Source of the DNA: Buxus sempervirens
Taxonomy: Eukaryota; Streptophyta; Magnoliopsida; Buxales; Buxaceae
Assembly: GCA_947561395.2 (NCBI GenBank)
Contig: OX387182.1
Location: 44,757,949-44,821,948 of the forward strand
DNA length: 64,000 nucleotides
Direction: 5' to 3'
Below are positions 1 to 55,047 of the stretch, one piece after another (position 1 is the first letter of the stretch; each line of letters opens with the position of its first letter). A program made the translations under genes and the position numbers. The notes under the pieces are model-generated. The model searched no databases, was not told where the DNA came from, and worked only from the letters and a program-made list of their open reading frames with translations.

Positions 1-1311
1 GATTATTGCTACCTTCTTAAAACAACTATGATTATAGAATGCCCTTAGACAATTTGATCTTTTGATAAGTGTATTATGACTAATTCCAGAAATGGTGGGT
101 GGATCTCCAATTCCTTTCAAAGGAACTGAGTGATTCTAAGAACACCACTCTTTAGACTGCACAATGTTCATTGTCCTAAGGTGAAAGGTGAATTTCCTCA
201 ATCTTTGAAATTCTTTAATGATAACTATGTCAATCAAATGGTTGTCCAGAGAGAACCCCACTGAATTCTAAGAATGAGGCGGATATAGTAAAAATCTCTC
301 TAGCTAAGAAGTTGAATAGCATAAAGTAATGACCAGTATTTTAGAAGATGTAGGCATGTAGGATATGTAAACAATGCTTTTTTGTTTTGGTATTCTCTTA
401 TCAGTATTTGCATTTGGTTGGAGTGTCATATATAAAGGAAGGTTGATATTAGTCAAGGCAGTTTGGATTGTTTCCATATTCTGTGTTGATAGTTTTTTGG
501 GAAATTTGCATAAACACCCCTCGAGGTTTATGGTAAATACAGAAACACCCCCTTGGGTTTTAAAACGGTCACTTACATCCCCTCAAGTTCGTGCATTAGT
601 TACGTAGACCCCCCTGATGTCAATTTCCCTGTTAACGCCGTGACATTAGCAACTTTGCAAGACGCAAATGCCCTTTGTCGCCCTAAGCCCCTTCTTCCTC
701 TTCTAACTTCTTCTTCCTCTTCTAACTTCAGACAGAGCAAAGTGCGAGAACCCTGTAAATCCTTGCCGCACTTGCTATTTGGTTTGGGGACGAACAGTGG
801 CTGGTTTCGCAAGCCCTATTCTTGCGTCCCCTCACTTGTTCTTCTTACTATGGTTAGCTGTGGAGTGCACTAGAACCAATCGTAAGGTAAGGTTTGAATC
901 TTTTCTTCTCCTCCCCTTTTCTAATGCCGATGATTCGACCATGCTTTTTTATTTTTTCATTATGACACTGAAAGATACGAGTAGCGTCACCGTTTTTTCT
1001 GTCGTTTTATTCTTTTGCCTAATTAATTGGTTCTGTAACTATGCGCATGGATGGTGCTCTCAGATAGGGATCCTTTAATGCCTTCTCTTGATTAGTATAT
1101 CAAGTTGAATGCAACTTGATATGGAATTGAAGAACCTGTACAGTTTTCTCTCTTATTAGCTTTTGGTGGATTGATTGGTCTCACTGCTTTTTGTGTTCAC
1201 TTGCCTATCGGGAAATCCCCCTGAATTTATTTTTTTCTCATGGGGTTGCGTTGATTAATTCCTTGCATGGTTATTTGATTTGATTTGATTTTTTTTTTAC
1301 TTTAGGTATAT
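1..1311. other. No gene recognised; possible 5' leader of the zf-GRF gene
   Basis: No convincing coding region was found. The stretch around 500-640 is rich in runs of C separated by T/A-rich text. Just before the ATG at 1312 a T-rich tract ending in AG at 1305 looks like a 3' splice site, so the downstream small gene may have a 5'UTR intron starting in this region. Nothing else is identifiable. Confidence 0.4.
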
Positions 1312-1720
1312 ATGTCTTCATCAAGTGCCAATCGGGACAGTGAGGTTTTATATACCAATGTCAAATGCCGATGTGGATGGAATTGTATTATAAGAGTTTC
1401 GGAGACATCTAATCATCCGAATACACTATTTTATACATGTGCAAGGAAGGCATTGGTCGGTATCGCACTTATTATGTTGATTGAAATTTTAATACTTTAT
1501 TTATACATGCTAATAAATTGTTTAATTGCAACCGTCAGCTTCATTACCAGTGTGCGATTTTTTTCAATGGTGTCGTCCTATTGCGTCCACAGCTGATAGT
1601 GGCTCAATTGACAATTGGTCAACGTCAAGGAGGGCATTCAACAGCGGTGGGGGTCATGAAGATACTGCAGCATCAATCCTTGCAAGCCCAGCAGATCAAC
1701 GAGTTAAAAGTCTTTGTTAG
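1312..1720 (+). CDS. Small zf-GRF zinc-finger protein, two exons
   Basis: Exon 1 is 1312-1459 and exon 2 is 1551-1720, with a GT-AG intron 1460-1550 that joins in phase to give about 105 residues. The N-terminal half carries CRCG followed by FYTC. Exon 2 supplies CDFFQWC, which matches the spacing of a GRF-type zinc finger (C-x-C, C, C with aromatic residues). The rest is low-complexity and Ser/Ala-rich, ending in TAG at 1718-1720. GRF fingers bind single-stranded nucleic acid in larger proteins. Short plant proteins with only this finger are common, uncharacterised and often dispersed near transposons. The start was chosen as the first ATG after a likely 3' splice site. It could be a decayed or transposon-captured copy; no frameshift is needed to read it. 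Confidence 0.6.
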
Positions 1721-2594
1721 AGTATTTGTTGTTGTAATTTTATTGTTTGTTATTTTTAAAGTTACGAAGTTTTAAATTGTATATTAACTATTATTTCAGG
1801 TTGTATATTAACTACTATTTCAGGTTGTAATTGATGAGCTCATGAATGATCTTTAATTTTCATTTTTAAACCTTCAGGGTAGGGTATAAGCTGCAAGACC
1901 AGCAAGTGAAATCAGTGCTATTTTTCATTGATTTGCATATAAATGCTGCTCTCACTAGATGCATCACTAATACCCTAGTGCGCCAGCTGACGAGCTTGCT
2001 AAACATTGAATAGATAATAAGAAAGAATCACAATTTGCCAATTTCTATACAGTTGGGTAACCTAACATTGTATGTGATACAGCTCAGTTGGGTAGCCCAA
2101 CCAGTCTCCTACTGAACTGCATTATTGATTTCAATTGATTCTACTACACTGATCAGAAAGCTTCCACATAAAAATAGCCTTGTTTGTTTCGGTTATCCAC
2201 GTAAGAAAATCTGCATAATAATACAGAATCAAAAACAATAGAAGAAATAACTCTATGACCATGGGTTTCCAACAAAATGGCCAGCATGATCTTACCGCAG
2301 CACCACGTAGCACATAAGTCAGGCCTTCAATATAGCAGAACCAATCCATTTCTCACGAACAAAATAATGATATATAAGTCCATCAAAGAAATGACAATGA
2401 TTATTCTTGCTCTTTCAACTAGAAAAGGGATCAAAACGTACACCAAGGATAGCACTGAATCTGCTTAAGGTGCTAATCCTGAAAATCTACAACCACGGTT
2501 GCTGTCTCTGAAACTGATAAAGGGTGTTACTGGAGTTTCAAATGGTAAATGCACACACAGTAGAGAAGAAAACATCCCATCTTTGAACATGATA
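1721..2594. other. Intergenic, no gene recognised
   Basis: A/T-rich spacer between the zf-GRF gene (+) and the 3' end of the gene on the minus strand. It probably holds the 3'UTRs of both. No repeat or RNA gene was recognised. Confidence 0.4.
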
Positions 2595-3279
2595 TCAAGA
2601 AGTAGCAGCACCCCGTTTTGATTTTGCCTTAAGCACAACCTCCTCTGTGGTGTCACCAACGATCTCATTTGCATGCTTCAAGCCTGTGCAGCAGTATCTT
2701 CCCATGCTATCTTGAATACATTTATTAATCCTCTGTTATCATGAAAGAGACCAAATGCAAACTCCCTCCCCAAAAAGTATAAACGGTAGGGAGGACCATA
2801 AAGATGACATCAATAAATAACAACCAATTAAGGTGAAGTTGAAGGTGGAATTAAAGGGCTCAATCATTGAGAACACCAACATCAAGGCACACGTATGAAG
2901 CTCATTGAGAACACCAACATCAAGGCACACGTATGCTAACCAAAACACAAAGGCACAAGTATGCTAACTTCATAGGCTTTACCTTCGAGACACTGTGAAC
3001 TAGGCCTAGCAGAAGATGGGGGATAGTGGTCGGACATCCCTGCTTCTTGAAGCATCTGCACCATGCTAGGTGAACCTCTGTGCTGATATGATCCCATGCC
3101 TGCATTGGTACCATATAAAAAGGAATGCAAATGTTGTAGTGGGATTTGTGTATGAAAAAAAAACCGGAGGTCAGTATTAACCAATAACACATTGGAGAAG
3201 GGTGAATGAATTACCCAAAACAAGATATGAATCACTAGACATACCATTGGACTGTTATGATAAGGAAACATGTGGTAGG
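2595..3279 (-). pseudogene. 3' exons of an unidentified host gene, interrupted by solo LTR S1
   Basis: On the minus strand, exon 2983-3099 (acceptor CAG just upstream; an alternative acceptor lies about 17 nt further in) and the terminal exon 2595-2683 join in phase through a GT-AG intron. They encode a Ser/Pro-rich stretch (SPSMVQMLQEAGMSDHYP) followed by KHANEIVGDTTEEVVLKAK and a TGA at 2595-2597. A further short exon appears at 3245-3279, continued at 6914-6934 beyond S1, flanked by AG and GT. If right, the LTR landed inside that exon and breaks the gene. The protein family was not recognised. Upstream exons may lie beyond the FAR1-like pseudogene, but I could not trace them. Phase agreement across the 2683/2983 junction is the best evidence that this is a real gene. 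Confidence 0.4.
2864..2939. repeat. 38-bp tandem duplication
   Basis: Two near-identical copies of a 38-bp unit (starting TCATTGAGAACACC at 2864 and 2902) lie in the intron between the last two exons of the minus-strand gene. Confidence 0.8.
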
Positions 3280-6063
3280 TGTGCACGCGTCGGAAACGCG
3301 GCATGGGAAAGTTCGGAGTCGTCACCGCCTGATGGGGTGCAGGCGGACACCTGGGTGCCTAATCTTATCTATTGAGACTTTGGTCTGCGGCTTGAGATTC
3401 TAAGTAGGGTCTCGATTGTGGTCTGGGGAAGTCCGTAGACACCCCAGACCACCCCGCTGGATGACGGGTCCCGTGGGTTCCCTGGTTTGAGTCAGCTCAC
3501 TTTGGTCTCACCCGATTTCTAATCCGATATGCAACTTGGTTAAGTTTGGCGGGACCACCTGAGTGGTGTGGGTCCCTTTAACTGGTTTTATCTTGCTTAG
3601 TTTAGGTGATCTGAGTCTGATCGGGTGGGCCCCGTTAGAAGGCCCACGGAGTCCTTGGTGGACTTAGGTAAGCCCACATATCCCATGTGGGCCTCTGCCT
3701 AAGCCTAAGAGGCCCTTTGGGTTCAGGTTTAGTGGATTGATTTTATCTTAAGTTTTAATTTAAGACTTTGAGTGGCTTTCATGCGAAGGTGGTCGGCCTC
3801 GGTTTGCGGGCCCTTAGGTGGGCCCCCATGATAGTTGCCAAAATGTTTTTTGAATTATCTTGTTTAAATTTGCCAAGGTGAGTTAGGCACTGGGCTTGGG
3901 GCCCGTAGTCCGACTTTGGGCTTGGAAGCCCAATTCTTTGAAGTCTAGGGTTTGCACCCCAACTTGGTTGATTAGTGGGCTTTGGCGGGCCCGATAGGCC
4001 CTAGCCCTTAGTCTCGGCCAAACCACACAATTCACATCATTCCACACATCAAGGTCGGGTGGGCCGCATTGGGTTTGGCCCGCCCGGTTCGACTAATTAA
4101 TTTTGCTTAAGTTGTTTAATTGCATGCACAAGGGTTTGTTGGGCTTGGTGGACCCCGTTGGAAGGCCCACAAATGTACCGAGTTAGACCGGTGGTCCATG
4201 TTCCAAGCTGGGTTTCCGGGTCACCCGAAAACCCTATTGGATCACTTGGTTTGGTTAGAATTATCACAAAAATTCGGCAAAGATGAGAATTATACAAAAA
4301 TGGCATTTATGCCATGTATCCGGCCTTAGTTGCCGGATACACACAGGCCATAGGGGTTTTCTACAAGTTGTGGTGACTTCCAGGGGTTCCTAGGGGTCTT
4401 CTACAAGTTGTGTGGGCCCCTGGGTGGGCCCTCATTGGTTTAGGTTTGGGGGAGGAGCCTCATTTGGCCTCCTTTTGGGGTTTCTCAACAAGGGCAAAAG
4501 GGGGGGAGACATGGGAAGTCCTCTCAGCTGTGGATCATGTATGTTAGTGAAACAGGGACCAAAGTGTCGTTGCTTTGGGTTTCCATGGCTCCAGGGATAG
4601 CAAGCATACTTAATCAAGAAAATCCAAGCAAGCAACAAACCTGAATCCATACTCTCGAGACATGCAAATCACATGCTTCTTTATGCATGTTCCAGACATT
4701 GTGGGTGCATGTGCACACGGGAATATGGTAAAAAAGTAAGCATGAATGACCTGGCATGCCTCTAACTTTGAAGGGAATTAGTGCATGCAATATGTGAATA
4801 AAAGAAGCTAACCATGTAATCATGCTTGGGTGGCATGCATGCTGGAGGAGGGTGAGGACAGCAGCTGTTGGGAGGGGGTTAGCATGCTTCTAGGGGCCGG
4901 AAACAGTGAGAAAGTGGGGAGGGGGATCATGGCAATAGGAAGGCTTACCCATGATACAAGCACCACAAGCACAACATACCAATCACACCTAATGAACAAG
5001 GGAAAGGGGTGCTGCTGCTGCTGCCAGCAGCAGCTCTAAAGGTACTGTGCATGCTCACTAATTTGTCATAAAAAGCCCTCCTGGGGTGTCAAGAGCAGCA
5101 ACTACAAGTGGGGGGAGGGGGTCATGCTCGTTGGCACAAAACAATGAACAAAACAAAGGCAAGCATGGAGGCATTAATACACAAAACGGTGGCATGTTGT
5201 ACAAGTGAAAACAACAGCTATGGAGGAACGAGAATCATGGTGAGTCACACAAAACAGCAAGCAAAGTTATACATTTGCACGATCCTAAAGGTGAAGAAAG
5301 ACATGCTTCAAGTGATGGGGTATTCTAGCATGTATAGGTCAACCACTAAGCTATATGCATACAAAACAAAGACCTAACCTAGCATGTATATCACTCATAA
5401 CTCACAGCAAGATCATGCTAATTTCACCTTTGCATTTCAATTTAAAGAGACAAAGAAAGGGAAGTGGGGGGTTACATAAAGGGGTACATTAGAAAAGATA
5501 TTTGGGGAACATGCTCCCCTATGGAAACCAAAGAGGAGGACAATGACATTATGCCTAAAACAGCAACATCATGACACTCCGAGCTTCGATCTCACTCTCT
5601 CATGAAACCCTACGAATGCCATCTCTTAACTTGGAGATCTCCGTATGGCGGAAACAAGAGGATAATGCATGCACCATTATTATGAAAGCAGATTTTATGC
5701 CATGGAGAAAACCAAGCACTGTGAACCCTTTATAAAACCTTCATTTTGACATATATGCAATAAAATACTGTAAGAAACCTTACCTTTGAACCTTAAGCTC
5801 TCCCTATGGTATGTAGAGTCACTTTTTGTAGCAAGACAAGGCCGGAAGCTCCCTCTTCCTGCACCAACAGCAGCAATACCCCTTCTTGTTGGAGTGTGAG
5901 ACCAAGGACAGAAGGAGGGAGGAGGGTGGAGGTGACTTGGGTGGTGTGGGGGTGGCGGAGGGCAAGGGGGTTGAGAAGGAAGGATTCAGATGGAAACAGG
6001 TGGGGGAAGAAAGCTGAAAACAGCAAAAAAAAACCCAACCCCCGGCCAGAGGTGGCTGCTGTG

Positions 6064-6072
6064 CTTTTATAG
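6064..6072 (-). promoter_or_regulatory. S1 TATA box
   Basis: CTATAAAAG on the minus strand, 11 bp downstream of the palindrome array. A 5' splice-site-like AAAG|GTAAGG follows about 270 nt later, near 5791. Confidence 0.65.
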
Positions 6073-6082
6073 ACAAGCTTAA

Positions 6083-6329
6083 TGTATCCGACATTAAATG
6101 TCGGATACACTACATGTCCTTTGTATCCGGCATTTAATGCCGGATACACTGAACCTCCTTTGTATCCGGCATAAAATGTCGGATACAAACAAAATTATTT
6201 CAAAAATTTAATGCCGCCGCGAATTTGTCGGGGAATCGGCGCGAATCTCGCCGAGCAAATCTTTGTATCTGACATTTGAGTCCGGATATGAAGAGGAGCA
6301 AATGTATCCGGCATATTTGGTCGGATACA
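6083..6329 (-). repeat. S1 interrupted-palindrome array (TATCCGGCAT type)
   Basis: Five units with arms TGTATCCGRCAT … ATGYCGGATACA start at 6083, 6122, 6161, 6264 (degenerate) and 6303. Spacing is 39 bp within groups and 103 bp between the third and fourth. A lone sixth unit lies at 4315-4341. The array is immediately upstream of the TATA box in LTR sense, so it is in U3. Confidence 0.9.
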
Positions 6330-6913
6330 AATCAAAAAATTATGGATTTGCCCCTCAACTTGACCGATTCGACCGATTTGACACTTTTGGATATCTACGG
6401 ATTGCCCCTACGAAATTTTGCTTTAAACCCTGGGATATTTTGCATGTTTGGATATTTACGGATTGCGCCTCGAGATATTTTCTTGCGCCATTCGCCACGT
6501 GTGTGGCTTTTTGCCACGTGTGCAGTTTCTGGTTTTTCTGCTCGGAAACTTCGACGGCTCATATCTCCTTCATCCGGACTCCAATTTGAGCAAACTCAGT
6601 TGCGTTGGACTCGTATCGAAGCCCTCTATCCAATGACATGGAGCTAAGCACCTGGCTCGGGGTTCGAAAAAAGTCAACTTTCGGCTCCCCTTTTAGTTTG
6701 ACCGGCCCACAGAACCTTCATCCGGACTCCGATTCCAGCGAACTTAGTTGCGTTGGACTCGTATCGGGATTCTATATCCATTGAGATAAAGCTATGTGGC
6801 CAATTTTCACTTGATCAAAAAGTCAATTTTCCACCCCTTAGGGTTTAACTTTCTGTTTAGGGTTTGCATTTCCGGCTCTTCCAGGAGTGCAACAATGAGG
6901 TGCTTACAGTAGG

Positions 6914-7196
6914 CTTCAGTTGATGGATGAATGCCTGGCATTAAAAATTGAGTATGTGGCACCATGTGCTGATCCCCACAAACTTCAATGTTTTGTGGGA
7001 CCTATGAATTACTGAAAGTGAAACATCAACTACAAGAGAAACCATTTGTCTGGATGGATCAGGAAATGTAGCACATGGTTCATTTGATGAAGACAGCATA
7101 GATCTTGAGGAATCACAGGTGTTTGAATACAACTTTGTGGCACCGTGTGCTTATCACTACTTTCATTTTCTTTTTTTCGCCTTTTTTTCGGATTGC
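6914..7196. other. Spacer between S1 and the FAR1-like pseudogene
   Basis: Contains the possible short minus-strand exon piece at 6914-6934 and a short open stretch 7023-7122 on the plus strand ending at a GT. Neither is strong. Otherwise nothing recognised. Confidence 0.3.
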
Positions 7197-9493
7197 TTAA
7201 GTCAAGGCATCCACGTTTCTACGAACACTCATACCTGCACGCTTGGATCTTGCCTTAACCTTGACTCCTTTTGCATTTTCTATTCGTTTTTTAGACATGG
7301 CCACATCTTCACTGATATTAACTGCATCAAACTGCCGCCCCCCCCCCCCCCCCCCCAATCTCCTGAGAGGTGTATGCTTGCTCATTTGCACAACTACCAA
7401 CCTCCTCTACCACATCAATATTTGCCACATCATTAGTATGCTCATCAATGAGGGGTCCTCCTCCATCATCAAACATCTACTCCTTTTCACACGGTTTAGT
7501 GTGCTCACTGTCATTACTAGTTCCAACAGACTTTGGAAGCTCTTGAAAAACAATTTCTTTCACAATCATATCCACTTCCTTAATTGTCTTTTCTGCTACT
7601 TGCATAACATAATCAGTTGCTTTTTGGCATACAACTGATTTAGATGCAAGTTGAATCAAAGTTGAACATACTAGGGAGTATCGCTTAGATATTTTACCAG
7701 TCTCAATACATGCACCTGAAGCATGTAGGGATGTAATGCCTTGCAATCCTTCTTTCGCATCTCTTCTTCACCTTTTAAGGAAGTAATTTTCTGGGATTTT
7801 TTCGATATCCTTGTGATGGACAACGAAGAAGATATGCCTACACAAAATGACTGCAAACTCGAACTTCTTACAACTGCATTGCACATCCCCATTTTCACCA
7901 TTATATATAACAGTGTGCACTTGCTTGATTCTTTGATTCCTATTGACAACCTTAAATATCTCAGAATCCCCAGTTTTTGAAGAGGCATGTAGCTTGTACG
8001 ACCAAATATCCGTTGCTTCTGTCTCAAGCCTGTTATAAACTGTAAGAGTGTACAACTTGCTTGCCTGTGTAAACATTGGCTGGATTAGATGTGGTTCCTT
8101 ATTCTTCAACATCATATTGCTGTCACTTGCTAACTCGCTGTAACTATGCCTCACCACAACAACATCAATTTGAGTCAAAAGCCACACCATACTCTTCTGC
8201 CTGTTCAAAGCATTTTTAAAAGATGCATTCATGCTCTCTAATACCTGAGTGCTAAGTATGTCCGCACAAAAGTGATTTCTCCCATACGCTAAGGATTACT
8301 TCTCCCTTTCCTTATACTTTCTATCCAACCACTCATTATCAGAAAGACCATAACTGTCAATCATGTTTTGCCATGCCTCCTCAAACTCGGAATCAATTTC
8401 ATACGTATATATGCAATCCTTGAATGCTTCTTTAAAACCCTTAAGAGTGTGAAACTGATTACTCAGATGCTTTACGGCATTTTGATACAAATGCCATATG
8501 CAATTTCGGTGCACTGTTCGATGCAATACTGCACCAATGGCTTTAGCCATTGCCTGATCCTGACCTGTTATAATAGTTTGCGGTTCTTTCCCATGCATGC
8601 AATTCACAAAAGTCTTGAACAACCAAGAAAATGCATCACAACTTTCTTCGTACAGAATAGCAACACCAAAAATGACAATCTGCCTATGATGATTTAATCC
8701 TACAAATAATGCAACTGGCCGATTTTCTGTGTTAGTCTTGAATGTTGTATCGAAACTAACAACATCACCAAAGTAACGATAATCTATGACCATCTGTCCA
8801 AAAAATGTTTGTGATCATATGATCCTCATCCATGTCAATGGCATGAAAAAATGCCTGATCTTCGCAAAGTTTCTCCTGAAAATAAGATGCTATAGCACCA
8901 CTGTCTCCTTTCTGCATTTATATCTTATTTTTTGTACGCAAGTAATTACCATAATCTTCACGTACAAATCCTACATTTTCAATCCCCCCAGCTTGTGTGC
9001 TCAAAAGTTCCATACCAGCTCTTGGAGTTAATCCAGCACGCTCAGCAATATCAACATGAGCTGCTATAGCAGGTGTAATTCTTCTTTGTGACCTTAACCA
9101 ATGACTCATGCTTGCAAGAAGTATCTCATGATTATGACTCAACTCCAAATCATTTATAAAATACTCCCCATGATCATTCAATCAAACTTTAATAAAAGCC
9201 TTGCATCCATACCTTGTTTGTGATGCCGACCTACTCCGAATTTCAGAAACCTTAGTCCTAATCCCTTCTTTTGAACAAAAAAATGTTTTCCAAATTATGC
9301 CGTTGCCAACATTATGCTTCTCCTTACCTTTGCGTACACTAAAACCAACAATCTTACCATATGCATTGTAAAAATCATACACCGAATTCAATGAATCAAA
9401 TTCCATCCCCACTTTAGGAATAAATACCGAGTCAACATTAGGAACAACCCTCACCTCACCAACCACCTCATTTGTATTGTTTTCAGTTGCCAT
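7197..9493 (-). pseudogene. FAR1-related/MULE transposase pseudogene
   Basis: Reading from ATG at 9493 on the minus strand, domains appear in the order of the FAR1/FRS family. A FAR1 DNA-binding domain comes first (GMEFDSLNSVYDFYNAYG, about 9415-9180). The MULE transposase core follows (VSFDTTFKTN near 8770, then ITGQDQAMAKAI near 8560, giving two of the D residues of DDE), then a SWIM zinc finger (CSCKKFEFAVILCRH near 7860). A basic C-terminal tail ends at TAA 7197-7199. The frame is broken by stops at about 9182, 8918 and 8296 and by a C-rich run at 7338-7356, so no intact protein is made. FAR1/FRS proteins are domesticated MULE transposases that act as transcription factors. This copy could be a dead FRS gene or an old MULE; no terminal inverted repeats were recognised. 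Confidence 0.85.
7338..7356. repeat. Poly-C run (19 C)
   Basis: A homopolymer inside the C-terminal part of the FAR1-like pseudogene. Its length may be unreliable in assembly. Confidence 0.85.
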
Positions 9494-10210
9494 ATTCTAA
9501 CCTTATAAATATAAACAACAAAAATAAAAAAAATGCATTATTAGTCAAAACAACAATTGAGACTGACTCCAACATACCAAAAGAGGAAACAACATTTGAA
9601 GAAACATCATTATTACCAGGTCATTCAAAAGGCACTGTAGACACCTCAAAATTGCACGATTTTTGATAAATCTTGAAGGAAAGAAATATCTTATTGGAAT
9701 TTTCAATTCTTAGCATTGGGTTTGAGATCCTTAACCCATTTGAATCCAAAACCACAAAGAAAAAGGCCCGAATTCAATCTTTTGTGCAAAGTCAAACTTT
9801 TTTCGGTTGAATTTTGTTGACTTTTGACCCCAGAAAATGAAATATTTTTTAAAGCAAGATTTCAAGATAATTTTTCCCGGTAATCAGGTTTTTAGCAATG
9901 TTATTGCATAAATGAATTTTTTGAGATTTTAAATCTTGACAAATACCTTGATATTAACATATTAAACCTTTTTACCAGACCTGAAAAACCGGAATTTAGC
10001 CTGAAACTGGAAAGTTGACTTTTTATTTACTTGGAATTTGGGTTTAGAACTATTTTTAATGGATTCAAATGGGGGGGGGGGGGTGTTTGCTTATTTACAT
10101 GTAATATCTTAAGTAAATGGAGATTAAAAACTACGAGGACATATACTTAAATGATATTACATGTAAATAAGTATTGCCTGTGTTAAAATTCAGATAAAAG
10201 CTTCTTTCCT

Positions 10211-10356
10211 TGTATCCGATAGTAATATTCGGATACAAAACATCTTTATTGTATCCGACAGATAATGTCGAATACAAAAGGTCTTTATTGTATCCGACAG
10301 ATAATGTTGGATACAAAGAGTTTTGTTTGTATCCGACTTAAGTTGTCGGATACAAG
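10211..10356 (+). repeat. S2 interrupted-palindrome array (TATCCGACA type)
   Basis: Four units with arms TTGTATCCGACA … TGTCGGATACAA start at 10211, 10250, 10289 and 10328. The period is exactly 39 bp. The motif is nearly the same as in S1, although the two LTRs are otherwise well diverged. Confidence 0.9.
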
Positions 10357-10518
10357 GATTTTGCTCAAAATTAGAGTTTTCCGAAAGTTTTCACTTTTTA
10401 CTGTCGTATCCTTTGTTTAAAAAGTGGAAATCTCGAAAATAGCCTTAGGGTTAAGTGTGGGGATTCTAGACACATCCTTGTGTCTACCATTAGGGTTCCC
10501 CCTAACCTTAGCCTTTGC

Positions 10519-10528
10519 CTATAAATAG
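10519..10528 (+). promoter_or_regulatory. S2 TATA box
   Basis: CTATAAATAG about 165 bp downstream of the palindrome array. A consensus 5' splice site CAG|GTAAGC follows at 10633/10634. Confidence 0.65.
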
Positions 10529-12311
10529 GAGGCCTCTCCTCAAGCAAATGCCAAGAATTTTTTAGAAGAGTTGGAGATTGGAGAGCTCCGAGTGAAGAAG
10601 GGAACCGCTGCCGAATTGCTCTCAGAAACCCAGGTAAGCCTGGAACTTCTTTATTTTTCTGTCTTTACATTCTAGGGTTAGATCCTTCTTCTACCTTTTT
10701 GTAGAATAATGGCCTATTGATTGTGTATGCAACCCCTTTCCCTACTCAAAGTACCTCAAGACTCCCTCTAGCCGTAAAACGTGAAGAGGGATCTAGGGGA
10801 AATGAGACTGGGAATTGATCCTTAGTTATAGAACCCTCTTGATTGGCCTTTTGATTCTATGAAAACCGTTTCATACTCAAAGTACCCCAAGACTATCTCG
10901 AAACCGTAAAACAGGGAGAGAGAACTAAGGGAAACGAGAATGGAACGGAACCCTAGGTTTTTAGAACCCCATTTGATTAATGTGCTTTAAATGCTATATG
11001 TTGTGATGATTGAAGAGATAATTTGTACACATGCACACATTGCACTTGTTTTGTCGGAATTGGCTTGTATTTTGGATCTATTGCCTTCATTGTGATAGAT
11101 CTAAAATAAATAGCCCCAAGCATTTATGGGATATTTCTTATTGATTTCAAACAAGTTTATCTTGAGTATTGAAGACCTCTAGGTCTAAGCTCTTGGATTT
11201 GGGCATTTTTGCTCCATTTTAGGGTTTTGGCATATTCTCTTCAATCGAAGAGAATGGTGAGCCAAATTCGTGCCCTATTTCCTCCTGGAGGTTCCTCAAG
11301 GAGGAAAATTGGTTGGGATTGCACGGATTTCACACACTTAATCACTATTTTGGGTTGATTTTACTTAAAAATGGCAAAACTGGACAGCGTCTGTACCCTA
11401 ACTTCGGACACTCATAACTTCATCATCCGGATGAATTTTGGAGTGATTCCAAATACATGTGAAAGGTGAGACTGTCTAGTTCATGTCTATAAAATTTCAG
11501 CCATTTTTATGAAGTATATTTTTGACACCATTCAGTCGAAGTTGACAGGTCAGTTCAGGTCAGATTGCTAAACCTGTCACTTCAAATGAGCACCATCTGC
11601 TCGATTTAAGTCCGATTTGAGTGATTTTGGTTTTTGTGTTTTCCTTTGGAAGTCTACTTTCAAATCCGATTGGTTTCATAATTTTTTTATTTCATTTGTG
11701 TCTTGGGTAACAGATTTACTCAGAACTGCTCAACAGCACATTTCTGGGCTAATCCGTGATCTTCATGGCCTATTTGGGAGGTCACCCAAGGCACATCCAG
11801 ATGAACTTTTGTATGAGGCTAGCTTCATTTGAAATATGGCCCTACATACTTCATTCATGCAAAATTTCACGGATTTATATGGAGCCAATTTTTCCAAATG
11901 AATTTCCAAAGTTGCCCACTTGTTACTTTTACCGATTTCCAACAGCAGATTTTAAATGAACATAATTCTTAGGATTTTAACTGGATTTAATTAAAAATCT
12001 TCATGAGTCTTCTATTTATCATAATCTTTCAAATGGATTTGGTTTGATTCAATTTTGAATTTGACTTGAATGATTTATGGTCAAATGGCTCCATCTTTTA
12101 CCGAATTTTCCGGATTTGTCTTGACTTGGTTGTGTTTAAGTTTTGCTTTAATTTCCATTTAAATGCTGATGTCCCCAGAAGTGATACTTTCATAAAAGAA
12201 AGTCTAAGATTCATTGAACTTCTCATGTGGAGGAATCATACATGTGTTTAATTGTTTTTAAGCCTTCTTGATTTTGAGCATGAACAACACTTGGCAACCA
12301 CCTTGTGTGGA

Positions 12312-12344
12312 TGAATGGGGGTGCCTAACACCTTCCCCCATTCA
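12312..12344 (+). other. S2 U5 RNA hairpin candidate
   Basis: Arms GAATGGGGG and CCCCCATTC enclose a loop with an inner GTG/CAC pair. The counterpart in element B (21975-22007) has a compensatory G-C to A-T change and a T-A to T·G change, so base pairing is kept. Confidence 0.6.
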
Positions 12345-12543
12345 TAATCTAATCCCCTTACCCATCTCTGGATTTTATTTTCAAGTGGAGTTATTTTTAC
12401 TCCAGATTTGCCTTTTTGCTTGTTTTGATGATTTTTTGTGCCCATTCACACCTAAAATTGAATGGTGGCGACTCTCCTATTTTGTTGAGCCCGTGTGATG
12501 ATGAAGGGAATCGTCTAGGTGATTTTCCATGTCTCACAGGCAC

Positions 12544-14263
12544 CAAATTTAGCAATCACAAGTCATTATTGCCAGGTCATTCAAGGTACAGTAGAGGGTT
12601 TAGTAATCAAGATATCTAAGAAGATGATAGCTGGAGCAATGACTCTCTCTAGATAACCTTTCGAGCAATCCAGTCTAATGGGACCAATAATCATATTTCA
12701 AAATGATACTAGTGAAAACTAACATCTAATTGCTCTTAAAGAATTAATTATAGTGTAGGGGCTTCCTGATCTAATGTGGTAATGGCATCTAATCATTCTC
12801 TCCAGATTATTTTTTCTACATAAATACATTTAGCAACTTGGGAAGACTATTATGGTTGCATGTAGTTTCTGAGTCTGCTGCTAACATGTTATTGGGAAAT
12901 TGTAAGTATCTCTTACTTAAACAATTTCTCAATCAAATGTAAGACATGTGCAATTAATGTAAGCTTTTGTTTTGATCTATGCGATATATGTTCAATTTGC
13001 ATCATGAATGTCACCAAATGAAAAAGAAGATTTAAATCTATAGGGATTCGTATCCCAAGTTCATCTTTTTTTCTTTCTTAAGGAGCAAGCAATGTCTTGG
13101 CTGATGAACCATGGTAACAAGGGCCTTAACCAGATTGGTCTAGGTCATTAATAATAAATATTGGTATTTACATGCTTTAAACCATTTATGTGAGAATACC
13201 CCTAAAATATAGACCCTCCTAGCTACACTCTTGGCTATAAATCTCGTGCTGATTAAAACAGTGCTAAGAATAAGGCTGATGTTTCATAAAACAGTGCTAA
13301 CTAAGATCTTTCCTAATCCTGGCATCCTAAAGAATCAGATATCCAATGGAGTTAGCAATCTTAGCTAATCCTAATCAAACATCCAGATTGCCAAGAAGAA
13401 GGCTACTATTTCATAAAACAAGATACAATGGTATTAGAATCTCCCTGTACCAATGTTATATCAAAATGGAAGAAAGGCCAGTGCCTTGATATTGTTCTTC
13501 ACAATTTGTGCAGCTCTGCTTTTACATTGCTCTCTCCATTCGATCTATAAAAAGCATGAGCAGTGATTTTGTTAAACTTAAAAACTCTCTTCTGAAGAGC
13601 CCAAATGCAATAGCATGGTGTTCAACCTCAGTTACCGTCGGTGAGCTCTACAACTCTAAAGTTCAAACTTGGGTTCTGTGAAAAGCATTCACTTCCATGA
13701 AGCAATAGGGCATACAATACATGAAACAAAGCATTCACTTCCATGAAGCAATAGGGCATACAATACACAAAACAACAGAGCATACAAAAATCATTGGCAT
13801 AACAAATGCAAATAGGCAAAGGATATCAAGATTGAAGAATTTGTGCTTTACAAATGATGAAGTGGAAATCAAGCCCCAGGATTTAACAGCAGACAGTATC
13901 CAACATCTGGGAATGTTCAAAAAATATGTTCATCGACTCTTCAACACAATTTGGAGAGATAATGTACATGAAATCTCACCAAATTTTTTAAGTGAGAAAA
14001 AAAGCTGTGGTTGAAGTCCTTTCTTGATTTTGCATTACCTGATAAACAAGTAAGAGTCTTCGGAGGAGACAGAGGATTTGCGACCACGAGATAGTGGCAG
14101 AAGATGGAGAGAATGGCAACAAGGGCTTTGCGACCAGGAGATAATGGCAGGAGATGGGGAAAATCTTCGTCACACTCTTCTCTCTCAACTTTGATCTTTG
14201 GGGAAGACGATTTGGAGAAGACAAAGATGATTTGGCATCATATTCAAAATGTTTGGCGGAAGG
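12544..14263. other. Spacer between S2 and S3; possible 5'UTR at its right end
   Basis: No coding gene recognised. A stretch near 14260-14037 on the minus strand is T/C-rich and ends CAG|GTAATG, which could be a 5'UTR exon with a splice donor. S3 would then sit in its promoter. Just inside the left edge (12562-12590), a 28-bp sequence repeats imperfectly the sequence flanking the other side of S2 (9605-9634). Confidence 0.3.
13685..13768. repeat. 46-bp tandem duplication
   Basis: Two copies of a unit starting GCATTCACTTCCATGAAGC at 13685 and 13731. Confidence 0.85.
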
Positions 14264-15324
14264 TGTGCGCATGGTTCGCACGTGGTGGGCGCGAGCCTCC
14301 TGAAGGGTAAAATGGGAGGGTTGGAGTCGCCACTACTTGATGGGGTGCAGGCAGATACCTGGGTGCCTAGGTTTATCTAGTAGGTGGTCTGCGGCTTGAG
14401 ATTCTATGGTAAGGTATCGGTTACGGTCCGGGGAAGTCCGTAGACACCTTGGTCTGCCCCGTCAAAAGACTGGTCCCATGGGTTTCCTGGTTTTGAGTCA
14501 ACTCGGTCTTGGTCTATCTCACCCGATTCCTAATCCAATATGCAATATTTGGTTAAGTCTAGTCATGACCGCCTAATTGGTATGGGTCCCTTTTACTTTG
14601 ATTTTATCTTATTTATCCTGAGTGATCTGGGTCTAGTGTGTGGGCCCCATTGGAAGGCCCACAAGATGCTAATTTGGGCTTTAGTGAAAGCCCAAGTCTT
14701 GTTTGGGGTTACGTTGGATAACCCCTTTAGGTTTTGGTTGATTTGATTGATTTCATTTTAAAGTTCAAGTTGGGGGATTAAGTAGTTTTCATGCAAATGT
14801 GGGCCTGGAAATGGTTTGTGGGCCCATTGGGTGGGCCCCACAGTGGTTGCCAAGTGATTTTGGTTTATCTTGATTTATTTAAGCCAAAGTGGGCTAGGCA
14901 TGGGCTTGGGGGCCCATTACCTAGGTCTGGACTTGAAAGCCCAAGGCAATTAGGGTTGGGACTAATGGATCCCGTCCTTTGGTTATGTGGGCTTCCCTTT
15001 AAGGGAGCTGGGCCCGATAGGCCCAAGCCCAAGTCACGCCTAAACCAGACTAGCAAGCATGCTTTGATTGGGCTTTTTGGTGGGCCTCAAATGGTGTGGC
15101 CCATTGGATTTATTTGATTATCTTTCTTTTTAATTTAAATGAACTAGTTGGACTGGGTGGGCCCCGTTGGAAGGCCCACGGTTCTCAAACTGGACCCCGT
15201 TGGGTCCAAGGCACATGCTGGGTCTCGGGTTGACCCGAAACCCTATTGGGTTAATTGGTTAATTCACAAAAGAGATTGTAAATGGGCTAAGGGGATGAAA
15301 ACACCAAAAACAGGTTCTCCAGGT

Positions 15325-15467
15325 ATAACCGAAATTCAATTTCGGTTATTCCAAAAACACAGTATGACCGAAATCAAATTTCGGTCATACTGTATTCACT
15401 GCATAACCGAAATTGAATTTCGGTTATGCACGAAACACTGTTTGCCCGACCTGAGTTCTCGGACAAA
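15325..15467 (-). repeat. S3 second palindrome array, with one odd unit
   Basis: Three TAACCGAAAT-type units begin at about 15325, 15364 and 15403, with a period of exactly 39 bp. A fourth unit in register at 15441-15467 has different arms (TTTGCCCGA … TCGGACAAA). The array lies in the transcribed part of the LTR. Confidence 0.88.
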
Positions 15468-16373
15468 CACAGAAAATAACTTTTTTGGTTTTTTGAAAGG
15501 GAAACTAATTCTCGGGGCCTCCAGGGATGCTGGGGAGCTGCGTGGGCCCCTGTGTGGGCCCATAGTGGTTTGGGATGGAGGGAATGACCCGTTTAGGTCA
15601 CTTCCTTGGGATTTTTAGGAGTCAAGGGGAAGGGGATCATGCCACACAAAATATACATGTGAGATTTCTAATCCTAGGCATGCATGATTCATGGTATAGC
15701 AGGCATGTAAAAAAAACTATCATAACCTAAGTTAGCATGCAAATAAAGAAAGGATAATGGGGGTTTTATGGGGATACATTGGATTCAAGGGGAAAAGGGG
15801 AACATGCTCCCCTTTCAAATAATCATGTGAGACCACCCATTCGTAGAACACTTGGGTGTGAACTCGAAAAAACGCTTCCATGGACTCTCCTCCCTTCTTT
15901 TAGAACTTCGGCCCTTCTCCTTACCATGGGATCATATTCTCGTGAAGAAAAAATAGAGGGAAGAAGAGGGGGATGAAGAAAACATTCTCCCAAAAGGAAG
16001 ATCAGCAAGTCAACAGAAGGAAACCAAAACCATATGCTCAAATCACTCCCATTTTTATATATGTATAATAAAACACTGTGGGGAGACTTACCTTGGGGCT
16101 GGAAAGCCTCCTTGGGTGGTGTTGATCTCCCTTGATGGCAACAAAGTGGCTAGGGTACCTTCTCTTGGCGCCAAAGAGCTCCTCCAAGTTTCTTTCTTAA
16201 GCAAAAGTGAGGGAGGAAGAGAGTGAGAATGGCTTAGATGTGTTTTTGAAAAGGATTTGAAGGTTTTGGAGTGAGGGAGAGGGTAAAGGAGGAGGGACGA
16301 GCAGGGTAGAGGAGAGAGGGGAGAGCTCCAGGGGCCAAAATAGCCAACCCCTTGCAAATGAGCTGCTGAGCAG

Positions 16374-16382
16374 CTTTTATAA
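16374..16382 (-). promoter_or_regulatory. S3 TATA box
   Basis: TTATAAAAG on the minus strand, about 12 bp downstream of the palindrome array, as in S1. Confidence 0.6.
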
Positions 16383-16393
16383 ACAAAAAATAT

Positions 16394-16600
16394 GTAACCG
16401 AAATTATATTTCGGTTATGAAGCAAAACTAGTATAACCGAAATATAATTTCGGTTACACTATATTTATGTGTAACTGAAATTTAATTCCGGTTATGCCTT
16501 TTTCCGACATTCAATCATGAAAAATCCAAGATTTCGTTGGGAAATCTGTCACATGATTCGGATTTTCACTTTATGAACCGAAATTGGATTCCGGTTATTC
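16394..16600 (-). repeat. S3 U3 palindrome array (TAACCGAAAT type)
   Basis: Units with arms TAACCGAAAT … ATTTCGGTTA. AACCG (or AACTG) begins at 16396, 16435, 16473 and 16576, giving spacings of 39, 38 and 103 bp. The same 103-bp gap occurs in S1 (6161 to 6264). Confidence 0.9.
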
Positions 16601-17171
16601 TTCCAATATTTTTTATATTTACAGATTGCCCCTGGATTTGACCGATTTGACACTTGAGATAACTGCAGATTGCTCCCTGCGCAATTTTAGTTTAATCCCT
16701 AAGATATTTTGCAGTTTTTGGGTTTTTACAGATTGCCCCTCGAGATATTTTCCTGCTCTTTTGCCACATGTGCAGTTTCTTGCATTGCAGCCCGGAAACT
16801 TCAACTGTTCATATCTTCTTCATCTGGACTCCGATTCTGGCAAACTCAGTTGCGTTAGAACCGTATCGGAGTCCTTTATCCATTGGGATAGGGTTAAGCT
16901 GTTGACTCGAGTTTTAGCAGAAAGTCAATTTTTGCTCCCCCTCAAGTTTGACCGACTTATATCTTCTTCATCCAGACCCCGATCTAAGCAAACTCAGTTG
17001 CGTTAGAATCGTGTCGGAATTTCCTAATCATTGGGAAGAACTATGGTGGCCAATTTGCACCTGAACAAAAGGCCAATTTTTGTTCCTTAGGGTTTTGAAC
17101 TGTTTTGCTATCTTTTAGCACATTTTTTCTTTTCTTTTTGGTTTGATCAAAATTTGGGTGCTTACAGAAGG

Positions 17172-20400: not shown

Positions 20401-20490
20401 AAATTGCACTGCCAAATGAGAAAATAATAAAAACATGTAATTAGAGCTTAAAACAGGTCAAAAAAGCCTAAAAATAGAAAGAACAGGCTT

Positions 20491-20600
20491 TGCCCGTATT
20501 GGCTTCACGGGCCTATCTCGCCCGTAAAATATCTACGGGCAGGCGCGTCCGTAGTACCAATACGGTCACCATTGGACCGTAAATCATTTACGGGCATTAA
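20491..20600 (+). repeat. Element B LTR palindrome array (TACGGGC type)
   Basis: Arms ACGGGC … GCCCGT. ACGG begins at 20507, 20535, 20562 and 20590, with spacings of 27-28 bp. The same array is in the 3' LTR at 40052-40161. Confidence 0.9.
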
Positions 20601-22221: not shown

Positions 22222-23470
22222 CTTGTGGATTTCAGCCTTTAGGTGTTTTTGTTCATGTTTTTGATTTTTTTGATTTGCTTGCTATTTTGTGTTTTTAGCA
22301 TGTCTTTGTTTTGCTTGCTGTTTGGTGTTCTTAAGCATGTTGAGTATGTTTTAAATCTGAATTATTGCTTAGGAATTCATGGGGGTAGAAACATGCTTAA
22401 TTCTGATTCATAGGATTGTTTCTAGAAACATGCATAGGAGAGGTTTATTTTGATAAACCATGCTTATTTCTTGCTGTATTTTAATATGCATGTTCTAATT
22501 TTCAGCATGCTTTCTATGGTGTATTTTGGATATATAATATGAGCATATGTTGACATGATTTGGATGATTTTTTATGAGCATGTTTTGGGTGCTATAGGAT
22601 TGCTTTATTTACTTGTTTATTTAAAATATGCTTTCCTATTATGCCTTGGTTTGTTTATGCATGGCTGCGAAAAGAGTGGCAAGGGTCTGGGACGTTGTGA
22701 ATGTGACCTATGTTTACAATGCACTGTGCACCTTTTATTTTTTTACACGGCCTACCTATCACCTATAGGAAGTTGAACAAGAATGTGTGTAGCTTGGCGC
22801 ACCGAGGTCGATACTTCGGAAAGCGAAAGTGAAAACATTCACCTTAGAACTTTGAGCTAATGATGTGATGATAATGTGGATCTGGGATTCTGGTCATCAC
22901 TAGGCTTGAGTGCTAAGTTGCCATTAAGCCAAAACCCAAAACCCCTACGCTTGAAGGTGGAGTTACACGTTTTTGGCTAAATTACACAATTACGTGGGAA
23001 TATGGGGTTTGTATGATTGTGGGAAGGCCGTATGCATGGCTTACAAACCAGGGCATAATGCGGATGCTATATTCAAGGTAAACAAGGTAACAAGGTAATC
23101 CTATTGTTTTGCATTATTTTCATGTCATAGGGGTGTCATGGTACCCATGGGTTTGGGATAAAATTGGTCCCAAAATATGCATATTTGTTAAAAAGTGGTG
23201 CAGCCCATAGGAAGAGTTTCTAACTCTGTTTAAAATCAATCCTACCCAATGTTTGTACAAGAGGCAACAAAAGGGTACCAAAGTATGGTGTCAATTTGGA
23301 GGGTACATGTACCCTCCCAAACTTGTGTTTTACAAATAGGCCAAAGTCCACTTTGGGACAGTTTAGAAGCTCTGTACTGGGTGAACCGTACGTTTGGATG
23401 AACAATGAAAGTGATCAAACCATATAAAAACTGGAAAAATATAACAGGGTTCCGTAAAACCGCATTTAAT

Positions 23471-23592
23471 ACACGGGCTGGGCTTGCCCGTATTGTTTAT
23501 ACGGGCTAGGCTCGCCCGTGGACTGCCTACGGTCACGGCAGGCTCGTAATTTAAATACGGGCAAGGCTGGACCGTACTGTATATACGGTTTT
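23471..23592 (+). repeat. Element B leader palindrome array
   Basis: ACGG begins at 23473, 23501, 23529, 23557 and 23585. The period is exactly 28 bp, with the same TACGGGC … GCCCGTA arms as in the LTR. Confidence 0.9.
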
Positions 23593-23765
23593 CTCGGAAT
23601 ATTCAACTTTAATCAGTTTTTCCCACTAAAATATTCTTTTAACCTTTAAATAATGATAAAGGGAAACAAGTTTGAATAAAATGCTTTAAAAAAAAAAACA
23701 AAAAACAAAAAAAAAAACAAAAAAAAAACAAAAAAAAAATATTTAAAAGAAAAAAATGTGAGAGA

Positions 23766-24655
23766 AAGGCTTCTGAAAGCCTTTGAATTTCAGACTTTTT
23801 CAAAACTCTTGGGCCTCTGAAAGCCTTTGAATTTCAGATTTTTCTCAAAAATCCCTGGGCCTCTGAAAGCCTTTGAATTTCAGACTTTTTCTCAAAAAAT
23901 CCCTGGGCCTCTGAAAGCCTTTGAATTTCAGAACTTTTGGGCCTCTGAAAGCCTTTGAATTTCAGACCTTTTCCTTTTGGGCCTCTGAAAGCCTTTGAAT
24001 TTCAGACCTTTTCCTTTTGGGCCTCTGAAAGCCTTTGAATTTCAGAACTTTTGGGCCTCTGAAAGCCTTTGAATTTCAGACCTTTTCCTTTTGGGCCTCT
24101 GAAAGCCTTTGAATTTCAGAATTTTTGGGCCTCTGAAAGCCTTTGAATTTCAGAACTTTTGGGCCTCTGAAAGCCTTTGAATTTCAGACCTTTTCCTTTT
24201 GGGCCTCTGAAAGCCTTTGAATTTCAGACCTTTTCCTTTTGGGCCTCTGAAAGCCTTTGAATTTCAGAACTTTTGGGCCTCTGAAAGCCTTTGAATTTCA
24301 GACCTTTTCCTTTTGGGCCTCTGAAAGCCTTTGAATTTCAGAATTTTTGGGCCTTTGAAAGCCTTTGAATTTCAGAATTTTTGGGCCTCTGAAAGCCTTT
24401 GAATTTCAGTCCTTTTTCTTTTGGGCCTCTGAAAGCCTTTGAATTTCAGAACTTTTGGGCCTCTGAAAGCCTTTGAATTTCAGACCTTTTTCTTGTGGGC
24501 CTCTGAAAGCCTTTGAATTTCAGACTTTAAAAAAAAAAAAAAAAAAAAAAAACCTGGGGCTCTGAAAGCCTTTGAATTTCAGACCTTTTTCAAAAAAAAA
24601 AAAAAAAAAAAAAAAAAACCCCCCGGACTTCTGAAAGCCTTTGAATTTCAGACCT
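23766..24655 (+). repeat. 22-unit tandem repeat in the element B leader
   Basis: Twenty-two copies of a unit whose core is CTGAAAGCC…GAATTTCAG. They are joined by variable spacers (AACTTTTGGGCCT or ACCTTTTCCTTTTGGGCCT, with longer A-tracts near the ends), giving periods of about 34, 41 and 48 bp. The core itself has CTGAAA/TTTCAG inverted arms. Tat elements are known to amplify such repeats in untranslated regions and to seed satellites. Confidence 0.95.
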
Positions 24656-24924
24656 TTCTCTCTTTTGTGGGACCTGTTGGAAGCCCTAGAATATTCCAAC
24701 AATTCAATTCAAAATAAAAAAAAATAAATAAATAAATAAATAAAAAAAAAAAAAAGGAAGCAAATAAAAAAAAATATCCAAACTCGTGTTCACCCAGCTT
24801 GCACATAGGCATTCGTAGGCATGTGAAGGAGATTAAATTGGCACTGATATTTTATCTTTATTTCTCGCCAGGTACTAATACACTCGCAATCATAGCTCCT
24901 GTAACCAGATCAAGAGCTCGAGCC

Positions 24925-35006: not shown

Positions 35007-35042
35007 AAAAAATCGTAAGACAGTAAATTCCGTAATTATATT

Positions 35043-35160
35043 ACGGGCTAGGCTCGCCCGTATAGAAATTACGGATACAGCTGACCGTGAAAAGTTCACG
35101 GGCAGCGCACGCCCGTGATAACTTTACGGGCACAGCCTGCTCGTAGTATAATTACGGTTC
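35043..35160 (-). repeat. Palindrome array upstream of antisense gene 1
   Basis: ACGG begins at 35043, 35071, 35098, 35126 and 35154 (spacings 28, 27, 28, 28 bp), with the same TACGGGC … GCCCGTA arms as the LTR array of this element. Confidence 0.9.
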
Positions 35161-35371
35161 CTTCGAAAAAATGCAAAAAAATGGGAATTTTTAATTTCTT
35201 TGGTTTTCCTAAGATTCACCTGTCCCTGTTTTAACATTCATCAGATAATAAATACTGTAAATAAAGAAGAAAGAATACAAATGGAAATAAAACAAACTTC
35301 TTTTATATATATGAATGTTTACATCACTTTTGCAAAAAAAAAAATAATATACAAAGGTACATGGAAGAATC

Positions 35372-38323: not shown

Positions 38324-39495
38324 CTACGGTTCAAATCAGGGAGATGATTAATTATTTAAATTTTTTAGTTGCTTGATTAATCATTCTAACCGGGTTTAAT
38401 TGATTGACAGGGAAAAAGAAAAATGGAGAATGGAAAAAGTGCTTCAAAAACTCCCAATCAAAATCAGAAGTCAATTGAAGGAGTTTAATTTTCTGTTTGG
38501 AAATTTTAGTGATAGTCGAAGCATGTTGGAATGAAGATTACCTATGCTATACTAAGTTGCTTAAATGCCAGGTGAATCAAGGAGCAACTCATGTCAAGTT
38601 ATGTATTCAGCTCCAGGGAATAAAATTCAAGTCTACACAAGCATAGCAACACCACAGGCCAAAAGCCAAGATGGAGATAGCAATTGCACTTGAGATTTAA
38701 AAATAAGGATGCTCTAGCAGTTAATAGAGTGGCATTCAAGGAGAAGGCAGATCAAATCAGGCAAAATACAGCAATGTAAAGCTAACATTTCAAGACAGAA
38801 AATTGCATGAAACAACTTCTTAAGGAATAAACAAGTTGGCCAAATAATCAAAGGGAATCTAGAGTATACAAGATTGAAGCAGCAATCCAGACTCAACCAG
38901 AAAATTTACACATATCAGTTCTGTCAGCATGGAGCAAATTCAAAAATTCGGAAATTGGACATTCAAAAGACAAATCTGTTAACCCAAGAGCAGAAAGTCA
39001 TTTGGTCGTATATAGAAGTTGAAGATTTACTCATGAGGATCATGCAAGCATTTCAAGCATCTCTTCAACAATTTTCGGATGTAGCATTGGCATAAAAATC
39101 AGTGGTTGAACCATAAAACAAGTCTGAATTTCTACAACCAAGGAACAGAAGATTGAATAGCATGGACGAACTGTTTGCAAGAAGAATTTGAGAAAAGGCA
39201 TACCTGATTATCTGAATGGAGGTTTTGCAAGCTAAAATCTTACTCCACTGAAGCTTCAAGGAAGAAGGCAAGTGGTCGCTGGAAAGCAGTGATCGCCGAA
39301 GGAGAATGGTCGCCGGAAAAAAATGAGAAGCTCGCCGAAGGAGAATAGTAATCGCCGGAGATCACCGGAGAAGGAATCGGACTGTTGAAGAAGAAGGAAA
39401 GACCGGAGAAAATAGCACGGGCAGCAGAGAATTAGGGCACAGTGCAAGCAGAGGAGAAATGGTCGCGGTCGCGAACTTAAGAAGAAGAGTAAAAT

Positions 39496-54998: not shown

Positions 54999-55047
54999 TA
55001 GTGCTCTTTCAAAGACTAATGGTCCCACCGGGCGTGCCAAAAAAGGA

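Follow-up and report, generated by a model that had tools for sequence, protein, structure and literature searches.

A 64-kb window of the 676.5-Mb genome of Buxus sempervirens (the whole stretch of DNA analysed, 64,000 nucleotides, to which all positions refer) holds two full-length elements, E1 and E2, the solo long terminal repeats (LTRs) S1 and S3, and the LTRs S5 and S2. Short inverted-repeat units stand in arrays in S1, S2, S3, S5 and E1, and ahead of two antisense genes within E1 (Table 1); these arrays are the subject here. The LTR pair of E1, 1.8 kb in length with TG...CA ends, is 99.95% identical across 1,819 bp, and E1 has Pfam matches to Retrotrans_gag, RVT_1, RT_RNaseH, RVT_3 (a second RNase H-like domain) and rve. 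Its domain order, LTRs and target-site duplication (TSD) are those of a Ty3/gypsy LTR retrotransposon of the Tat/Ogre type, a lineage name that rests on domain order. A search of IMG/VR with the E1 polyprotein confirmed no relative. S2 is a relative of the LTRs of E1 and of the element at L103 (L numbers denote loci from the genome searches), whereas S1, S3 and S5 form another lineage, whose similarity to the E1/S2/L061 lineage is limited to the arrays and one short piece. S1 and S3 had been recognized as related solo LTRs in an initial annotation of this DNA, and each is indeed bounded by a 5-bp TSD (GTAGG and GAAGG); the intervals first assigned to them span their promoter arrays.

On its minus strand E1 carries gene A and gene B; the splice sites of gene A are not fixed and the exon structure of gene B was read by eye. 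Exon 1 of gene A matches DUF7745 (PF24924; E = 1.2e-20, 74.3 bits against a cut-off of 26) as well as PMD (3.5e-11, 43.3 bits, cut-off 34.9), and gene B matches PMD (PF10536; E = 6.1e-16, 59.0 bits, cut-off 34.9). With PMD matches in both, the two genes look like distant paralogues; gene A exon 1 matches gene B of the element at L115 at 23% identity. The protein collection gave no match to gene A exon 1 at E ≤ 0.001. By eye, the C terminus of gene A has a coiled-coil-like stretch, and gene B would end in a GR-rich tail if 35372–36079 is its last exon. E2 also has an antisense PMD open reading frame (ORF), of 579 amino acids (43746–45482, plus strand).

One skeleton, CCG-N11-CGG, is common to all units. 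When the window was scanned for CCG-Nk-CGG with k from 0 to 30, there were 46 matches at k = 11 and 1–10 at each other k, and 200 block-wise Markov simulations gave a mean of 3.2 and a maximum of 9 matches to CCG-N11-CGG. The arrays are far beyond chance. By manual count, 39 of the 46 matches fall in the sites of Table 1 and 7 are isolated. A second peak in the scan, CGG-N11-CCG with 19 matches, would be explained by the 28-bp arrays, which are lattices with CCG and CGG alternating at about 14 bp. Among the 23 neighbouring exact pairs at most 60 bp apart in the window, the distance is 27 bp in 4, 28 bp in 12, 39 bp in 6 and 56 bp in 1. The 40 antisense-gene upstream regions described below give 73 pairs (59 at 27/28 bp, 9 at 38/39/41 bp, 5 at 55/56 bp), and 14 loci of the S1 and S3 families show the same three sets; a single distance of 23 bp occurs in the longer stretches. 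Both preferred spacings proposed at the outset, 28 and 39 bp, are thus present in the window and in the upstream regions.

Table 1 Elements, dyad arrays and antisense genes of the window
Feature	Class	Positions	Strand	Details
S1 solo LTR		3280–6908	-	TSD GTAGG (5 bp); lineage start TGTAAGCACC; similar to S3, S5
S1 second site, one unit	I	4315–4341		downstream of TATA
S1 promoter array	I	6083–6329	-	cores 6088, 6127, 6166, 6269 (decayed), 6308
S2 array	I	10211–10354	+	cores 10216, 10255, 10294, 10333, 39 bp apart; TATA near 10520
S3 solo LTR		14264–17166	-	TSD GAAGG (5 bp); S1 relative
S3 second array	II, one unit not II	15324–15469		downstream of TATA; class II cores 15329, 15368, 15407; non-class-II core 15446; all 39 bp apart
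S3 promoter array	II	16393–16600	-	cores 16398, 16437, 16475 (decayed), 16578; TATA 16374–16382
E1, full-length Ogre-like (Tat) element		20389–41762	+	TSD ACAGT
E1 5′ LTR array	IV	20489–20598	+	cores 20494, 20522, 20549, 20577 (28/27/28 bp); repeated in 3′ LTR at 40055–40138
E1 leader array, ahead of gag	IV	23455–23593	+	cores 23460, 23488, 23516, 23544 (decayed), 23572
Antisense gene A (DUF7745/PMD-like)		33114–34903	-	exon 1 from ATG 34903; further exon within 34259–33114
Gene A promoter array	IV	35025–35162	-	cores 35030, 35058, 35085, 35113, decayed 35141; TATA 35006; ATG 34903
Antisense gene B (PMD, multi-exon)		35372–38322	-	ATG 38322; intron in leader
Array upstream of gene B	IV	39491–39600	-	cores 39496, 39524, 39551, 39579 (28/27/28 bp)
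E2, second full-length element		42535–56140		
S5 LTR, S1/S3 lineage		58079–62660	+	3′ end not fixed
S5 promoter array	III	58522–58663	+	cores 58527, 58614 (decayed), 58642; further unit split by insertion
Insertion, 2.16 kb		58683–60846		TG...CA; TSD AAACC; splits class III unit of S5
S5 second array	III	61824–61906		downstream of TATA; cores 61829, 61857, 61885 (28/28 bp)

The LTRs of S1 and S3 read on the minus strand, and their promoter arrays thus lie upstream of the TATA box. They have the common layout that the initial annotation had described, with cores 39, 39, 103 and 39 bp apart in S1 (TATA 6064–6072) and 39, 38 and 103 bp apart in S3. The initial annotation put the first unit of S1 and S3 at 11–13 bp from the TATA box; by manual count the nearest core is 15 bp away in each of S1, S3 and S5. 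In S5 this is the unit split by the insertion, which resumes at core 60850, 15 bp ahead of TATA 60882. The 39-bp array reported for S2 is present, with four class I units, two of which have an exact core and two of which are decayed. In S2 and E1 the LTR arrays are approximately 170–190 bp from TATA. S1, S3 and S5 each have a second site or array about 0.9–1.75 kb downstream of TATA, of the same class as the promoter array; neither these nor the arrays of E1 figured in the initial annotation. No promoter was identified at the leader array of E1 (23455–23593), which is shortly followed by a tandem array of a short unit with GGGCCTCTGAAAGCCTTTGAATTTCAGA (23768–24660).

The units fall into four classes by half-site: TATCCGrCAT (class I: S1, S2, L046), TAACCGrAAT (class II: S3, L041), AACCGCAC (class III: S5, whose units were correctly given at the outset, L061, L114 and 11 antisense-gene copies) and GCCCGTAA (class IV: four sites in E1, and 26 of the antisense-gene copies fetched). 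Family samples are the best-scoring places of genome searches, which returned 1,046–5,750 candidate places per query, most of them unscored, rather than all LTRs of the genome. Among 46 half-sites in seven other copies of the S1 family, the diagnostic base at position -1 is present in 100% and C at +4 in 89%; among 32 half-sites in seven other copies of the S3 family, the -1 base and A at +4 are both present in 100%. These counts take exact CCG-N11-CGG units only, so that the core is at 100% by construction. A separate dyad of neither class, AGTTTCCG...CGGAAACT, is common to the S1 and S3 families (around 6510–6540 in S1; L004, L006–L008, L110, L111).

The antisense genes show the same classes. 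Searching the genome with the DUF7745 profile gave 5,750 candidates, 118 of them scored; from these came 40 regions upstream of gene A copies, taken largely in rank order from matches ending near profile position 200, the first exon. All but one (39/40) contain at least one exact unit, and together they hold 114 units, compared with 0–14 for 15 other gap lengths; most units lie about 140–260 bp ahead of the antisense-gene ATG, at a near-constant distance. Class IV accounts for 26 copies, class III for 11 and classes I and II for one each, and one copy (L055) has no unit. In exon 1, copies of one class have an identity of 0.91 and copies of different classes 0.69–0.74, and the unit-free L055 is at 0.39–0.43 to the others; class and family therefore coincide. 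Classes I and III are each present in both LTR lineages, and the code could have passed between the S1/S3/S5 and E1/S2/L061 lineages in either direction.

Classes I and II differ by a two-position switch. The arms of the S1 and S3 dyads had been called entirely different and the dyads unalignable, and neither statement stands: both have CCG-N11-CGG, the four units of the two promoters align in register and column for column, and the half-sites differ consistently at two positions only. Across eight aligned half-sites, T is replaced by A at -1 in 8/8 and C by A at +4 in 7/8. Identity is 1/16 at these two positions together, 65/80 at the other ten half-site positions, 60/150 (40%) in the spacers and 377/528 in the 5′ part of the LTR, with the skeleton kept. 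Divergence of the motif is concentrated at -1 and +4 and does not track that of the surrounding LTR; the equal divergence that would have counted against the initial annotation was not seen in the sample.

Positions -1 and +4 were chosen on S1 and S3 after inspection; the gene A promoters form an independent check. When the class II gene A exon served as query, 40 of 2,538 candidates were scored (100–77% identity) and the windows of ranks 2–21 were taken, giving 20 relatives, 12 of which have exact units and one only a one-mismatch unit. Class II promoters were found at L116, L117 and L120 (94, 93 and 88% identity) and class I promoters at L118, L119 and L122 (90, 89 and 83%); relatives at 79–81% have variants such as TCCGTATA, TCCGCATA and AACCGTATA. 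Four class II promoters (including L041) were compared with three of class I, the first unit of the reference having no counterpart in some rows. Between classes, identity is 0.14 at -1 and 0.09 at +4, as against 0.54–0.91 elsewhere in the half-sites and 0.60 beyond the units; within the two classes it is 0.90 and 0.67 at -1, and 0.75 and 0.58 at +4. S1 and S3 half-sites and gene A promoters thus change at the same positions: -1 and +4 switch together in two contexts, LTR and gene A promoter, in which no other common sequence was seen.

Class also agrees from promoter to promoter within an element. E1 has class IV at its LTR, leader, gene A and gene B arrays. The stretches upstream of seven gene A copies were examined in addition to E1, and in four elements the LTR, the gene B array and gene A were all reached: L061 (class III), L114 (class III), L115 (class IV) and L103 with L059 (class I). 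Together with E1, the class at the three places agrees in 5/5 elements, which cover classes I, III and IV. In 4/4 fetched elements the E1 PMD exon has a homologue, located by tblastn between the array and gene A, at 93% (L115), 71%, 64–79% and 51% (L059) identity. Of the remaining stretches, that of L113 has class IV at the LTR and at the neighbouring array (L047), and that of L112 includes gene B and ends before the LTR. Only nested elements were reached in L060 with L102, one of them self-consistent with class IV at LTR and gene B, and upstream of L041, the class II gene A, so that the class II autonomous LTR lies outside the sample. The promoter array and the second array are of one class in S1, S3, S5, the S5-type LTR in L060, L105 and L106; a class I site lies similarly far away at L003 and L008, which are kept out of this count, as continuity of the LTR is not established there. 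Apparent discordances at L109–L111 were rejected: at L109 and L110 a nested or neighbouring LTR is the source, and at L111 the site is outside the S3-like match. The class III arrays of L060 were also set aside, being part of the S5-type LTR in opposite orientation. The proposal of a private motif for each family, exchanged in concert at a kept position, is thus borne out within families, across the sites of an element and by the two-base switch in two contexts, and the motifs of a family are neither random nor mixed in the sample, one mixed copy (L119) aside.

Within class IV, the units are conserved unevenly. In 26 copies (25 fetched and E1; the records L096 and L039 were left out of the conservation counts as a whole), the mean majority fraction is 0.946 in the core, 0.912 in the arms, 0.715 between units and 0.85–0.88 in the flanks, so that the core is best kept and the stretches between units are worst kept, below the flanks. 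The CpG of the core is at 0.963 and other CpG at 0.786; CpG decays fast in methylated plant repeats.

These patterns are best read, we think with fair probability, as operators of a family-specific regulator that is most likely encoded by the elements and co-evolves with the arrays. From sequence we infer a binding protein, its dimeric form and an activating role. A dimeric protein would read two inverted half-sites with a near-invariant CCG, 11 bp apart, with dimers stacking every 28 or 39 bp ahead of the LTR promoter (gag-pol) and of those that drive the antisense DUF7745/PMD genes; a reader of half-site pairs that stacks in this way would explain the skeleton, the spacing and the mirrored changes. 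The bases flanking CCG would set family specificity, and a family's protein would act on the promoters of that family alone. That the promoters of one element share a private specificity suggests a protein belonging to the element, and genes A and/or B are the candidates, because arrays stand at their own promoters. The outcome would be an auto-regulatory loop, probably activating or anti-silencing, a sign favoured by the VANC and MAIN/MAIL1 precedents discussed below. Were the specificity of the protein to shift, the operators of the family would shift with it. The S1, S3 and S5 families may ride on the proteins of autonomous elements. A wider proposal is that of orthogonal codes, in which each autonomous family encodes a PMD/DUF7745 factor that reads the dyads through two or three specificity bases, LTR and antisense genes make up one regulon, S1/S3/S5 are passengers, and codes change repeatedly and leave host silencing or rivals behind; it is tentative, and we think it somewhat less likely than not.

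Several observations weigh against an element-encoded, co-evolving regulator. In E1 we saw no TATA following the gene B array. No known DNA-binding fold emerged: a PDB search by sequence with gene A exon 1 and with the PMD stretch of gene B matched no solved structure. Half-sites at antisense promoters are loose in classes III and IV, with C at +3 in 66% (III) and C at -1 in 62% (IV), and the first 40 regions include a single gene A copy for each of classes I and II. In the class I element, the core is exact in 2/6 units of the LTR and gene B arrays, the rest being decayed; the second array of the S3 lineage retains a single unit outside class II (15446; L105, L106); and L119, the sole mixed copy in the sample, has a hybrid half-site. 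Of the 20 relatives found with the class II exon, seven have no unit in the 251-bp window. In ten class III copies the contrast is weak (core 0.971, arms 0.940, between units 0.921, flanks 0.914–0.959). Among the 30 top-scoring DUF7745 loci (L009–L038; units counted within 1.5 kb), 15 have no unit, 11 a single unit and 4 at least two, three of these being class III and one class IV; a general dyad scan of nine of the loci found no array, and E2, with its PMD gene, has four scattered core matches and no array. PMD and DUF7745 genes are therefore not always accompanied by arrays. Eleven of these loci (L015–L019, L021, L029, L034–L036, L038) hold a group of DUF7745 genes with open frames of 477–498 amino acids, in which a single conserved CCG-N11-CGG lies about 560 bp before the match, with no array.

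The regulator could instead be an element-encoded repressor, with the arrays serving copy-number or superinfection control. The core 15 bp from TATA in S1, S3 and S5 could let a bound protein block assembly, but the more distant LTR arrays of S2 and E1 are better suited to activation, and both precedents are of anti-silencing or activation; we regard repression as unlikely, if the most serious of the alternatives. We also doubt that the arrays are sites acquired from the host and bound by one of its transcription factors, or by a family of host paralogues that prefer different flanks. The common skeleton would suit one family of host proteins, as would the occurrence of arrays in two LTR lineages with almost no likeness outside them; yet class is tied to element family and agrees across the promoters of the examined elements, and a switch among close relatives would need another host factor every time.

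Homogenisation of arrays by tandem duplication or gene conversion, with no selection for a protein partner, would account for the regular spacing, which resembles tandem duplication, and the targets of VANDAL transposons are reported to evolve through the formation of tandem repeats (PMC5735166). In the ten class III copies, moreover, the spacers are not the least conserved part. Against this, conservation is lowest in the sequence that separates units, both in class IV and in the comparison of S1 with S3, the changes are mirrored on both arms, S1 and S3 units align one to one, and separate promoters 4–19 kb apart in E1 carry one class, which makes homogenisation quite improbable. Many units are near-perfect inverted repeats, but their action as DNA cruciforms or RNA hairpins is hardly credible, as symmetry is often partial (5–13 of 13 pairs) with a free centre and base identity beyond pairing is kept within families, which such structures would not lead one to expect.

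For operators read by a regulator of the elements themselves, the nearest parallel is the VANC proteins and their motifs in the VANDAL (MULE) DNA transposons of Arabidopsis (PMC5735166, PMC10398659). There, family-private arrays of short motifs in non-coding regions change together, a feature found here as well, and motif and protein are proposed to co-evolve, as we propose; the likeness is one of motifs and not of compared proteins. The VANC21 motif is a nine-base word arrayed in one orientation, whereas the unit here is a CCG-N11-CGG dyad at the promoters of LTRs and of antisense genes. With its gag-pol and PMD/DUF7745 genes, E1 is not a VANDAL MULE; its system may work like VANC without being a member of it. 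MULE transposase fragments (MULE and SWIM domains) do lie between S1 and S2 (7771–8814, minus strand).

Two further plant systems, and one retroviral, are relevant. HTLV Tax and HBZ exemplify a retroviral regulator of its own LTR and an antisense gene; the likeness, a virus-like element that encodes its own LTR regulator and has an antisense gene, is by description and not by sequence, and we know of no code switching of this kind for retroviral transactivators. Retand elements have antisense TRP28 (PF04195) ORFs, in place of the PMD/DUF7745 genes found here, and HBZ is named in the same paper (PMC11963269); in the portion of it available, no target sites are named and 'palindrom' occurs only in the reference list. 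PF04195 was absent from 18 unspliced stretches of the window scanned against Pfam. PMD domains occur in plant Gypsy elements (PMC9289625), and genes downregulated in mutants of the host PMD proteins MAIN and MAIL1 are enriched for the DOWN promoter motif (PMC7156037). By analogy, this link to a promoter motif counts for a PMD-type regulator. The host proteins are also connected with the silencing of transposable elements, and the available text of both papers has no dyad array or family-private code. A search of titles and abstract starts, without bioRxiv and most subscription papers, found no such arrays in Tat/Ogre LTRs, which is not proof of absence, and no paper of that literature named DUF7745.

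If operators and regulator are as proposed, the PMD/DUF7745 genes that lie antisense in plant Gypsy elements would gain a function, and PMD, whose function was called unknown in PMC9289625, would be a candidate for sequence-specific DNA binding at defined half-sites. The CCG of these half-sites holds both CG and CHG sites. The VANC principle of protein–motif co-evolution would then extend to LTR retrotransposons, with a cleaner read-out in the form of a fixed skeleton and two switching bases.

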